DNA of 64,000 nucleotides. Source: Mycolicibacterium gilvum (GTDB lineage: Bacteria > Actinomycetota > Actinomycetes > Mycobacteriales > Mycobacteriaceae). Below, piece after piece: positions 1-4,332 of this stretch (its first letter is position 1; every line of letters begins with the position of its first letter). The translations under genes were made by a program, and so were the position numbers. The notes beneath the pieces are model-generated. The model ran no database searches. It was not told the DNA's origin and saw only the letters and a program-made list of their open reading frames with translations. Location of the stretch: assembly GCF_900454025.1 (NCBI RefSeq), contig NZ_UGQM01000001.1:558001-622000 (forward strand), written 5' to 3'.

Positions 1-521
1 AACAGGTGCAATGGCGCGGGATGGTAGGCCTCCAAGATCGAACGCAGCCGGTTTTCGGTGTCGACCTGCATGTCGAGGATGCGTTGACGGTCGCGACTGA
101 TCGCGGTCAGCTCGGCAAGGACCGGCGACGGGGTGGCTAACGGCCGCCACTGGGCATGCTGGTGACGCAACGTGTCGGCCAGCACGTAGGCGTCGAACTC
201 GTCGGATTTTGCTGCCGCCATCCGATACCGTTCACGGGCCCGAGCCGAGATCTTCGGTGATACGCAATAGATTTCAGCTTCGCATTGCTGTTGGAGATGT
301 TCGACAAGCAAGCCCTCGGCGCGTTCGATAGCGATGAGCACTGAGCCGGCCAACGAAGCGATCACCTCGACCAGGGCCATCAGACCGTCGACGGTGTGCG
401 CGATTTTGCGGCTGAGGAGCTGTTGGCCGTCGTCGTCGAGGACGCAGAGGTGATGGGAGCGTCCGCCCCAATCGATGCCGCACCAGAAACGTTTCCCACC
501 GTCCGGACTATCCTGAATCAC
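1..521 (-). CDS. IS110-family transposase, N-terminal part (cut by window edge)
   Basis: The minus-strand frame starts at a GTG near 521 and runs off the left edge, so only about 173 N-terminal residues are visible. They form the RuvC-like DEDD domain of IS110 transposases: CGIDWGGRSHHLCVLDDDG carries the first Asp, AIERAEG the Glu, and KSDEFDAYVLAD the paired Asp residues. IS110 enzymes cut and join DNA guided by an RNA made from the element's own non-coding end. The C-terminal domain with its Ser nucleophile lies outside the window. The start is a choice; in-frame TTG codons lie a little further upstream. The protein differs from the other IS110 transposase at 2518-3681. Confidence 0.88.
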   Translation of the reverse strand, partial: MIQDSPDGGKRFWCGIDWGGRSHHLCVLDDDGQQLLSRKIAHTVDGLMALVEVIASLAGSVLIAIERAEGLLVEHLQQQCEAEIYCVSPKISARARERYRMAAAKSDEFDAYVLADTLRHQHAQWRPLATPSPVLAELTAISRDRQRILDMQVDTENRLRSILEAYHPAPLHL

Positions 522-766
522 TGCAGTCAGATCCCTTCGATCCGAAAGTTCACGCTGCAATGACGGGGCGTGCCCGGAACCTCATCTCGGCACTCACCGC
601 TGATACCGGTGGTGCTGCTCTCGCTGGCCGGTCCATGCCCCGCAGCCACCACGGGCGGACGGGTCTGCATGTGGACCTCGAAGGTGACGCGTTTGCACAG
701 GTCCTGCCCGTGGTGGTGCAGGTGAACGCCGAGACCATCCCGGCTCGTCCATTGTTAATAGATGAG
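522..766 (-). ncRNA. Candidate IS110 bridge RNA in the non-coding element end
   Basis: This 245-base stretch separates the IS110 start codon from the point where IS256 sequence is interrupted (about 766), so it is the element's upstream non-coding end. In the IS110 group this end is known to encode the bridge RNA. Two hairpins are visible. The first pairs 646-660 with 701-716 (15 pairs, one bulged base at 705) around a 40-base loop at 661-700. The second pairs 590-599 with 607-615 (arms of 4 and 5 pairs, one bulge) around a 7-base loop. No convincing protein is encoded on either strand. The RNA itself, its ends and its guides are inferred. Confidence 0.5.
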
Positions 767-1590
767 GTCTGCACCACGGTCTCGGGGTAGATCGAGCGGA
801 TCGCGTCGGGCAGCCCGGTCAGCCCGTCGCAGCAGGCGATCAGGATGTCGCGCACCCCGCGGTTGCGCAGATCGATCACGACTTTCTGCCAGAACTTCGC
901 CCCCTCGGAGTCTTGGATCCAGACCCCCAGGGCGTGTTTGCGGCCGTCGAGATCCACGCCGATGGCCAGATAGGCCACCTTGGTGGTGACGACCCCGTTG
1001 TCTTTGATGCGCAGCCGCAGCCCGTCGATGTAGAGGATCGGATAGACCTCGTCGAGCGGGCGCGATTGCCAGGCCTTGATCTCATCGACCACCACCTCGG
1101 TGATGTTGGAGATCAGCTCTCGCGACACCGACGCGCCGTACACCTCCTCGAGATGTGCTTCGATGTCGCGGGTGGTCATGCCGCGCGAGTACAGCGACAA
1201 CACCACCGAGTTGAGGTTGCCCAGCCGGCGGACCTTTTTGGGCACGATCGCCGGCTCGAACGAGCCGTTACGATCACGCGGCACCGCGATGGCCACCGGG
1301 CCGTTGACCGTGGACACCGTCTTCGGTGTCGTGCCGTTGCGGGAATTGCCGCTGCCGCGCCCGGCCGGGTCACCGGCCTCGTATCCCAAGTGGTGGGTCA
1401 GTTCCGAATCCAACGCCCGTTCCAGCACCGCCTTGGTCAACTCGTTGAGCAAACCATCGGCGCCATCAATCGGGGTTCCCGACTTCACCGCATCCTTGAT
1501 CAACGAATCCAGCGTCTCAGCCGAAAACGTCTCCGCCAGTTGCCGAGCCGCCGACTTTCCCGAACCCGACGACGCTATGGCCTTGGTCAC
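767..1590 (-). pseudogene. IS256-family (mutator) transposase, copy A, 3' truncated
   Basis: The GTG start at 1590 is preceded by AGGAG at good spacing. About 275 residues match the N-terminal two-thirds of a mutator-type DDE transposase: the LTHHLGYE region, the GNSRNGTTPKTV segment, the first catalytic Asp in PILYIDGLRLRI, and the second in ILIACCDGLTGLPDAI. After YPETVVQT the frame runs into IS110 sequence and continues as unrelated residues to a stop at 550. The C-terminal part with the last catalytic Glu is missing, so the protein should be inactive. A family member is normally about 400 residues. Confidence 0.9.
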
Positions 1591-1668
1591 AAATCACTCC
1601 TTCTGTCCGCCCGAACGGCGGTCCGATCTTGGACCACCCCGGACTTACACAGATGGAATGACACGCCC

Positions 1669-2439
1669 TCAGCCGTCGCAGCAGGCGATCAGGATGTCGC
1701 GCACCCCGCGGTTGCGCAGATCGATCACGACTTTCTGCCAGAACTTCGCCCCCTCGGAGTCTTGGATCCAGACCCCCAGGGCGTGTTTGCGGCCGTCGAG
1801 ATCCACGCCGATGGCCAGATAGGCCACCTTGGTGGTGACGACCCCGTTGTCTTTGATGCGCAGCCGCAGCCCGTCGATGTAGAGGATCGGATAGACCTCG
1901 TCGAGCGGGCGCGATTGCCAGGCCTTGATCTCATCGACCACCACCTCGGTGATGTTGGAGATCAGCTCTCGCGACACCGACGCGCCGTACACCTCCTCGA
2001 GATGTGCTTCGATGTCGCGGGTGGTCATGCCGCGCGAGTACAGCGACAACACCACCGAGTTGAGGTTGCCCAGCCGGCGGACCTTTTTGGGCACGATCGC
2101 CGGCTCGAACGAGCCGTTACGATCACGCGGCACCGCGATGGCCACCGGGCCGTTGACCGTGGACACCGTCTTCGGTGTCGTGCCGTTGCGGGAATTGCCG
2201 CTGCCGCGCCCGGCCGGGTCACCGGCCTCGTATCCCAAGTGGTGGGTCAGTTCCGAATCCAACGCCCGTTCCAGCACCGCCTTGGTCAACTCGTTGAGCA
2301 AACCATCGGCGCCATCAATCGGGGTTCCCGACTTCACCGCATCCTTGATCAACGAATCCAGCGTCTCAGCCGAAAACGTCTCCGCCAGTTGCCGAGCCGC
2401 CGACTTTCCCGAACCCGACGACGCTATGGCCTTGGTCAC
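1669..2439 (-). pseudogene. IS256-family transposase, copy B, 3' truncated
   Basis: This copy is identical to copy A from the GTG start at 2439 through residue 256 (ending in CCDG). There a single-base loss (two C instead of three near 1673) creates an immediate TGA. Four bases later the sequence meets the terminal end of copy A at 1668. Only the N-terminal region with the first two catalytic Asp residues remains. It is a fragment and cannot give active transposase. Confidence 0.9.
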
Positions 2440-2517
2440 AAATCACTCCTTCTGTCCGCCCGAACGGCGGTCCGATCTTGGACCACCCCGGACTTACACA
2501 GATGGAATGACACGCCC

Positions 2518-3681
2518 GCCGCCGAGGGAACCAGGCTGGCATCGCGTCGCTTACCAGAAGGGCTGGCTGGCATTCGCGGGTTCCACGAACTGGTGGCTGC
2601 CCACGCCCAGGATCCCACCGAGGTGGTAATCGGCATCGAAACCGACCGCGGCCTGTGGGTCGAAGCACTCGCCGCGGCCGGCTACGAAGTGTTCGCGGTC
2701 AATCCGCTCGCCGTGGCCCGCTACCGCGACCGCCACCAGGTATCGGGTGCGAAGTCTGATGCTGCTGACGCCAAACTCTTGGCTGATCTGGTGCGCACCG
2801 ACCGGCACAATCACCGCCCGATCGCCGGGGACACCCCGGAGGTGGAGGCGATCAAAGTCCTGGCACGGGCGCATCAAAACCTGATCTGGAGCCGCAACCG
2901 CAACACCAACGCGCTGCGCAGCGCGCTGCGCGAGTACTACCCCGCTGCGTTGGAGGCCTTCGCCTCGCTGTCCGACCGCGACGCCCTGGCGATCCTGGGC
3001 CGCGCTCCCACCCCGACCGACGCCGCACGGCTGAGTGTCTCAAAGATCCGATCAGCGCTCAAAGCTGCTGGGCGACAACGCAACCTCGACGCCAAGGCAC
3101 TCGAGATCCAAACCGCATTGCGCAGCGACCAGCTCGCCGCCGCGCCCGCGGTCACCGCCGCGTTCGGGGCCACCACCCGCGCCGCGGTCGCCATCATCAC
3201 CGAGTTGAACCACCACATCGCCGACCTCGAAGCCGAATTGGCGGCACATTTTGAGACACACCCGGACGCCGACATCTACCTCTCCCTGCCAGGACTCGGT
3301 GTCATCCTCGGCGCCCGGGTGCTCGGTGAGTTCGGGGACGACCCCAACCGCTACACCACCGCCAAGTCTCGCAAGAACTACGCCGGAACCTCCCCATTGA
3401 CCATCGCGTCGGGCAAGAAACGCGCCGTACTGGCCCGCCACGTCCGCAACCGCCGCCTCTACGACGCGATCGACCAATGGGCCTTCTGCGCCCTGACCAA
3501 CAGTCCCGGCGCACGCACCTTTTACGACCAACACCGCGCCGCCGGCGACCTGCACCACCAAGCACTACGCGCCCTGGGCAACCGCCTCGTCGGCATCCTG
3601 CACGGCTGCCTCCGCCACCACACGCCCTACAGCGAACACAAAGCCTGGGCCCACCGCCAAACCGACTCCCGAGCTGCTTGA
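2518..3681 (+). pseudogene. IS110-family transposase B, 5' truncated by IS256
   Basis: From the IS256 end at 2517 the plus strand encodes about 387 residues of an IS110 transposase. The RuvC-like part retains the Glu (VIGIETDRG) and the Asp pair (KSDAADAKLLADL). The C-terminal Transposase_20 domain is intact (YLSLPGLGVILGARVLGEFG, then KNYAGTSPLTIASGKK, which contains the expected nucleophilic Ser). The first 20-25 codons, including the first catalytic Asp and the natural start, are gone. The frame stays open through the antisense of both IS256 copies, giving a long chimeric frame that is not a real gene. The 5' end was not found elsewhere in the window. Confidence 0.88.
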
Positions 3682-3708
3682 CAACCTACGGTCCTGGGAT
3701 GTCTAGGC

Positions 3709-4332
3709 TCACAATCCGCCCCGGGACTTCTTCACCCGCTCGACCAGATCGGCCGGACCGTCGAACGACACCCAGGCCTCATCGCGGCCCGCGGCGAACA
3801 TCAACAGCTCACCGGGGTCCCCGGTCACGGCGACCTCGGCGCCCTTGCCGACGGTGGCCAGGGTGTCACCCTGCGGGGTGCGGAACACGACCTTCGCCGG
3901 CGCTTTGCGCAGAGTCATCCTGGCCATCATCGCGACCGGCCGGCGCAGCGCCGACACCGTCTGGTCGTCGAGGGGACGCGGTTCCCAGTCGGCCCCGGCG
4001 CGCCGGACGTCCTCGTGGTGGATGAACATCTCCGCGACGTTGGCGATCGGATCGAGCAGCTTGAACGGCGAGTACAGCGGCGGGCCCTCGGCGACCCGGC
4101 CCAGCAGCACATCCCAGTCCGTCGACGACGCGACCTGCTCCTGCACGCGTTCGGTGTAGTCGGCGAACGCCGGGATCAGGATCCCCGGCGCCGCGTCGAG
4201 GCGACGCTCCCGGACCACGAGGTGCGCGGTCAGATCGCGGACGTCCCACCCTTCGCACAGCGTCGGGGAGTCGGGTGCGGTGTCGCGGAAGGTGGCCACC
4301 AGGGCGGCCCGCTCTTGCTGAGCAACGGTCAT
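3709..4332 (-). CDS. TIGR03085-type metal-binding protein (mycothiol maleylpyruvate isomerase-like, DinB superfamily)
   Basis: The 207-residue protein has the N-terminal four-helix DinB/MDMPI fold: ALVATFRDTAPDSPTLCEGWDVRDLTAHL near residues 10-40, with a His on the AHLV helix, and FIHHEDVRRA near 105. A C-terminal SCP2-like segment includes TVGKGAEVAVTGDPGELLMF. Members of this superfamily often act as mycothiol-dependent transferases or isomerases; the substrate here is unknown. It lies 30 bases after the glucose-6-phosphate dehydrogenase gene on the same strand and is probably the last gene of a redox operon with mycothione reductase. The ATG at 4332 is the natural start. Confidence 0.85.
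   Translation of the reverse strand: MTVAQQERAALVATFRDTAPDSPTLCEGWDVRDLTAHLVVRERRLDAAPGILIPAFADYTERVQEQVASSTDWDVLLGRVAEGPPLYSPFKLLDPIANVAEMFIHHEDVRRAGADWEPRPLDDQTVSALRRPVAMMARMTLRKAPAKVVFRTPQGDTLATVGKGAEVAVTGDPGELLMFAAGRDEAWVSFDGPADLVERVKKSRGGL

Follow-up and report, generated by a model that had tools for sequence, protein, structure and literature searches.

Aiming at another mobile element is a habit that the element described here shares with IS4321 and IS5075, members of the IS1111 group with a downstream non-coding region, which insert in the terminal repeats of Tn21-type transposons and have a terminal repeat rather than transposase codons as their target. The target of IS4321 is mentioned in the main text of PMC11187229 (Siddiquee et al. 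2024), which also describes ISEc21, an IS110-family element guided to the codons surrounding the second DDE aspartate of IS3 transposases, as tested in the laboratory, together with its relative ISMch6, which has been naturally retargeted. According to the main text of PMC11208160, a bridge RNA is predicted in 85.7% of IS110-group members.

The window analysed here is a stretch of 64,000 nucleotides from Mycolicibacterium gilvum (contig NZ_UGQM01000001.1, positions 558,001 to 622,000), and an earlier note had read its positions 522-766 as the bridge RNA of an IS110 element. We put the probability that this region is the bridge RNA of an IS110-group element, guided to codons of an IS256 transposase, at about 0.92. 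As described in the main texts on IS621 (Durrant et al. 2024, PMC11208160; Hiraizumi et al. 2024, PMC11208158), the present locus resembles that element in having a 5' stem-loop, a target loop and a donor loop in the same order in the left end, in the strand sense of its left and right guides, in a core whose T is fixed and whose first letter is free, and in five catalytic residues; it differs in its left target guide, which in IS621 takes in the core and here mostly does not. Compared with ISEc21, as far as the main text goes, it likewise has a guide RNA, called seekRNA in that system and predicted here, in the non-coding DNA upstream of its gene, targets conserved catalytic-domain codons in the transposase of another IS family and has been naturally retargeted, whereas the victim of ISEc21 is IS3 and that of the present element, known here from sequence alone, is IS256 at its C-x-x-H codons (PMC11187229). 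Because guided insertion into transposase catalytic codons has already been published for ISEc21, we regard our element as a known type with a different victim family. A literature search, with ISfinder and most subscription papers outside its scope, found no description of an IS110 bridge RNA aimed at IS256, and the main texts of PMC11208160 and PMC11187229 contain neither 'IS256' nor 'mycobacter'.

The element, its recombinase and its relatives

The IS110-group element is 1556 bp long and lies on the minus strand, as do all of its features given below, with 790 bp falling beyond the start of the window. Its left non-coding end (522..766, 245 bp, complete, read from 766 to 522, with ends taken from the IS256 junctions) is followed by the 5' part of the recombinase gene (1..521), the remainder of which lies outside the window together with a 90-bp right end. 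The start codon is probably GTG (521-519), relatives having ATG at this place by eye. Membership of the IS1111 group was considered and ruled out on the long end, since the RNA-bearing end lies upstream rather than downstream of the gene (245 bp of non-coding DNA upstream vs 90 bp downstream). The element boundary drawn in the earlier note proved correct: the core dinucleotide is found at positions 766-765, where the element meets the IS256 gene that it interrupts, the end at 766 is common to the close-clade copies introduced below, and the boundary takes in the whole of 590-716. That note had also placed the right end outside the window, where we located it; in the close-clade copies in which a right end was located, it lies 1551-1562 bp from the shared end at 766. 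The core dinucleotide itself (765..766) is CT, the target's core at the left junction, and reads CT in 34, GT in 11 and AT in one of 46 copies.

Beyond the junction lies the interrupted IS256-family element, comprising the 5' part of its transposase gene and the element end (767..1668, minus strand, translated start 1590). Its frame reads to ...ETVVQT and continues with CVVHVIRN on the far side of the IS110 element. The interrupted frame is also open on into the bridge RNA region (550-1590, minus strand), and directly beside the interrupted copy lies a further, truncated one (1669-2518, minus strand), with about 99.7% identity across 857 bases.

The recombinase matches the domains DEDD_Tnp_IS110 (E 2.1e-32) and Transposase_20 (E 1.7e-16), both above cut-offs, and scores 176.4 bits against NCBIfam NF033542, for which the cut-off is 140. 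Its similarity to the IS621 protein is distant only (E 8.9e-10), and in its 419-aa translation residues D30, E79, D120, D123 and S335 correspond by alignment to D11, E60, D102, D105 and S241 of IS621, the PDB chain numbering being shifted by 2. A 100% match to the recombinase is found in Mycolicibacterium frederiksbergense LB 501T. A weak candidate -10 (TAACAA, 752..757) lies 17 nt after the right-end TTGACA once the two ends are joined; TTGACA is present in 40 of 42 right ends, with TTCACA in the copies of genomes G353 and G087. We infer that a promoter formed where the ends join may drive transcription.

Close-clade elements occur in 11 of 396 genomes of the genus, plus a fragment in G030, and a left-end search of 14 genomes, in which up to 40 candidates per genome were scored, yielded at least 41 full close-clade copies, spread over 11 of the 14. 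A second clade shares 50-58% protein identity with the close clade; of 7997 candidates scored against its protein, 928 are related at E 1e-80 or below, 120 of them listed. More distant relatives from a separate search (mostly 32-41% identical, among loci L039-L083), among the matches listed, have other left ends and flanks. A class-level search gave two of 394 genomes, both previously known, and a viral scan gave one relative, at 36%. The genome under study carries four copies of the element, which, with the surrounding IS256, have about 2975 bp in common with one mismatch relative to the window copy. At two of its IS256 copies, the outer flanks (the left of L007 and the right of L008) are reverse complements of one stretch, the pattern expected from inversion between oppositely placed IS256 copies.

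Guides and uninterrupted IS256 sites

The predicted bridge RNA runs from about 746 to 560, limits that we set by the outermost predicted stems, and consists, within the left end, of a 5' stem-loop followed first by the target-binding and then by the donor-binding loop. Both hairpins described in the earlier note are present as claimed. The first, in which 646-660 and 701-716 form 15 pairs with one bulge around a loop of 40 bases, supplies the outer stem of the target-binding loop, with its 5' arm at 701..716 and its 3' arm at 646..660; the second, in which 590-599 and 607-615 form 9 pairs with one bulge around a loop of 7 bases, is the inner hairpin of the donor-binding loop (590..615). That description did not include the 5' stem-loop (728..744), which has 7 pairs and a 3-nt loop.

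Four putative guides are placed in these loops. The left target guide GUGCAAAC (691..698) pairs at seven of eight positions with its own target GTGCAGAC, and the right target guide CAUGCAG (665..671) at all seven, one of them G-U, with its own target CTGCGTG. The left donor guide CAGCGAGAG (618..626) pairs at eight of nine positions with the right end CAGCGGGAG, and the right donor guide AGAUGAG (581..587) pairs with the core and right-donor letters CTCATCT (760..766). Their sense is as published, left guides facing the bottom strand and right guides the top strand. With order and strand sense fixed, and with guide lengths that were set after inspection of the sequences, the four guides jointly reached 28.5 of 31, as high as none of 2000 shuffles, the best of which gave 27.5; singly they were unremarkable, being reached by 512, 434, 218 and 17 of 2000 shuffles.

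We surveyed the guides and their sites in 46 copies, 41 of the close clade and five of the second. The right donor guide makes seven of seven pairs in 44 of them, the exceptions being the copies in G353 and G087, both with a broken recombinase reading. Among the 39 close-clade copies whose right end was found, the left donor guide pairs at eight of nine positions in 38 and at seven of nine in the other one, and it pairs at nine of nine in all three second-clade copies with a right end; across the 46 copies the donor guides did not separate the two clades. When all left target guides were paired with all sites, G-U counted, the mean was 6.1 of 8 within the close clade and 7.5 of 8 within the second, against 3.3 and 4.0 of 8 across clades. 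The right target guide gave 5.5 and 6.0 of 7 within clades against 5.0 and 4.4 across, a comparison that includes one distinct second-clade right target only. The two clades carry different target guides and hit different IS256 lineages, and it is as this natural retargeting between clades that the possible 'programmable' recombinase of the earlier note is seen here. Both right guides end in AG, which pairs with core CT, and the core letters are left unpaired by the left target guide in most copies, as judged by eye. In genome G319 the left target guide begins ACGC, not GTGC, and most targets begin ACCC or ATCC; two of the eight left-target-guide positions are mismatched in every copy there.

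IS256 genes without an insertion provided a natural control. From four genomes we took 40 stretches with uninterrupted or partial IS256 genes, picked among the matches listed, and kept 38 after excluding L230 (no motif) and L229 (motif in the wrong frame). Among the matches listed, 10 of these 38 sites pair at six or more of eight positions with the local left target guide (0/15 in the genome under study, 0/5 in G319, 7/9 in G004 and 3/9 in G342), and 34 of 34 insertions in the same four genomes do so, L174 included; copies are not independent. Some matching IS256 genes are uninterrupted, so that matching sites have not all been hit.

The same control bears on the possibility that the region is a true bridge RNA in a window copy that is now immobile because matching IS256 sites are exhausted: all 15 uninterrupted IS256 sites of the own genome, among the matches listed, pair at only three to four of eight positions. 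The frame of the window copy is nevertheless open, its catalytic residues are present and proteins 99-100% identical to its recombinase occur in three other genomes, and we hold this explanation to be rather unlikely; it would bear on present activity and not on the identity of the RNA. Read as a guided series, the 46 copies span two clades and hold 24 distinct combinations of guide, target and donor, and with matching and mismatching uninterrupted sites in the same genomes they make mismatch tolerance and natural retargeting testable on natural sequences.

Insertion before the C-x-x-H codons of IS256 transposases

In nearly all copies the insertion lies directly before the codons for the C-x-x-H motif in an IS256-type transposase frame. 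Close-clade left flanks end with (V/I/T)QT in such a frame in 40 of 41 copies, and C(V/I/F)(V/I)H resumes on the right in 38 of the 39 with a right end found. Left flanks of the second clade end in QR in all five copies (WQR in four, with a stop replacing W in L074), and CRVH resumes in all three right ends found. The IS256 identity of these genes was established by a PF00872 match in 12 genomes and by the translated flank alone for G353, G087, L192 and L074, and in the interrupted genes the break in the PF00872 profile falls near position 252-255. In the codons for Q, T, C and H, the 19 distinct close-clade sites agree at the first and second base and vary at the third. The IS110 and IS256 genes are co-oriented in 45 of 45 IS256 insertions. 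Insertion is specific for site and orientation and proceeds without target duplication, the IS256 codons continuing across the element. A by-eye check of the four own IS256 copies revealed no flanking target duplications. NT is kept at the left junction in 46 of 46 copies, and CT is found at the right junction in all 42 that were found by a search pattern permitting CT or TT only; exactly these junction letters are expected if the top strands are exchanged after the core T.

The target is well defined and unusual. In the mechanism that we propose, the recombinase would carry the bridge RNA. The donor loop of this RNA would pair with the excised element at its joined ends, and its target loop with the DNA for (V/I/T)-Q-T-C-(V/I) at the IS256 C-x-x-H motif. 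The top strands would then be exchanged after the core T, which would lead to insertion at one position and in one orientation and split the IS256 transposase. The circle, the recombination itself and the silencing of IS256 by insertion are steps that we infer from these sequences.

The only close-clade copy outside an IS256 frame, L174 (G319:C1:2740000-2742600), lies at CCCCAAAC-CT-GCTGT. This site retains CAAAC-CT-GC, and an off-target insertion is plausible. An initial guess that L174 lay within an IS3 transposase was abandoned once its flanks were read.

A common position might also have arisen from one old insertion that was spread by IS256 transposition or recombination rather than by guidance, as the near-identity of the four own copies, IS256 included, the identical short target in six of seven G342 copies and the flanks of L093 and L182, which derive from different IS256 genes as recombination would give, could indicate. 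Such spread could account for copy number inside one genome and not for the whole set, given that the 19 distinct close-clade targets lie across different IS256 genes, that the second clade sits in another IS256 lineage and that the core letters vary; we therefore consider it very improbable.

Under guided insertion, two related Actinomycetota IS110 lineages may be specialised RNA-guided parasites of IS256, with guides that follow the codons of a functional motif, tolerate synonymous change and have changed along with the shift in lineage from VQTC to WQRC, and hosts may thereby gain a natural brake on IS256; to this wider proposal we give even odds. Together with ISEc21 and its IS3 targets, the present element suggests that the codons of transposase motifs are a recurring aim of IS110 elements.

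Mixed IS256 halves were also observed around the element. In L093 and L182 of G319 the left and right halves, or parts of one half, come from different genes, and the same holds for L098 and L099 (G248 and G134), as recombination between copies would yield. In the G342 copies the IS256 part and the IS110 protein lie within one open frame of 770 aa, and a fused product is possible.

Folding and covariation of the left end

To describe the conservation of the predicted stems we aligned 12 left ends (seven close-clade and five second-clade), giving 11 distinct alignment rows. Pairing is kept among these related elements, with compensatory changes. Over the 22 stem pairs 98.3% of cells are paired, compared with 32-50% in slid structures, and 20 cells are changed on both sides, compared with 7.9 in shuffles and 0-5 in slid structures. 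Double-sided changes affect six pairs, vs 3.8 in shuffles and 0-3 in slid structures, with 18 of 500 shuffles attaining six; 'further pair types' showed no excess over shuffles (500/500). In the 5' stem-loop 98.7% of cells are paired and one pair is changed on both sides, and the outer stem of the target-binding loop is likewise supported by pairing, folding and covariation. The four-pair outer stem of the donor-binding loop, formed by CCGG at 628..631 and its partner CCGG at 574..577 (628-631 with 577-574), is kept in every one of the 12 left ends, and two of its positions show C-G/T-A double changes; for the inner hairpin, folding, the centroid structure and the left-end comparison agree.

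A covariance model of the first part of the RNA scored 121.9 bits at this site and at most 18.5 bits elsewhere in the window. In the genome under study it matched the four copies only, and in 297 genomes of the genus it found 18 places in eight genomes, all of them previously known copies, some of which were included in its training set.

Minus-strand folding energies are -44.6 kcal/mol for 640-722 (z -4.5), -14.4 kcal/mol for 585-620 (z -3.4) and -113.0 kcal/mol for the whole of 522-766 (z -3.3), equalled in each case by none of 200 dinucleotide shuffles. Folding of the plus strand is about equal (z -3.5, 0/200, and z -3.6, 1/200). As both strands fold alike, folding alone carries no strand information, and the strand was set by gene order and guides. 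The fold energy of 560-640 is unremarkable (z -0.95), and the centroid nonetheless has the shape of a donor loop. That the hairpins are ordinary G+C-rich folds (an attenuator, a terminator or chance) without guide function is scarcely credible, for although both strands fold well, the energy of the donor part does not stand out and chance can produce single guide matches, the stems show compensatory changes, the loop letters follow the target between clades and the four guides match jointly in order. The reading of the region as a bridge RNA is backed by stem covariation, by the boundary and by the match of the guides to target and donor in the IS621 arrangement, and by all tests run it appears to be a real one.

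When 1-4000 was searched against Rfam with E values of up to 5 admitted, there were three matches, none of which overlaps 522-766. Further into the window, beside IS256 sequence, a second, different IS110-type transposase without its N-terminal part lies on the plus strand (2614-3539), and antisense to it, on the minus strand, is a match to the Actinobacteria sRNA Ms_AS-4 (3285-3366, 101.8 bits, gathering threshold 50).
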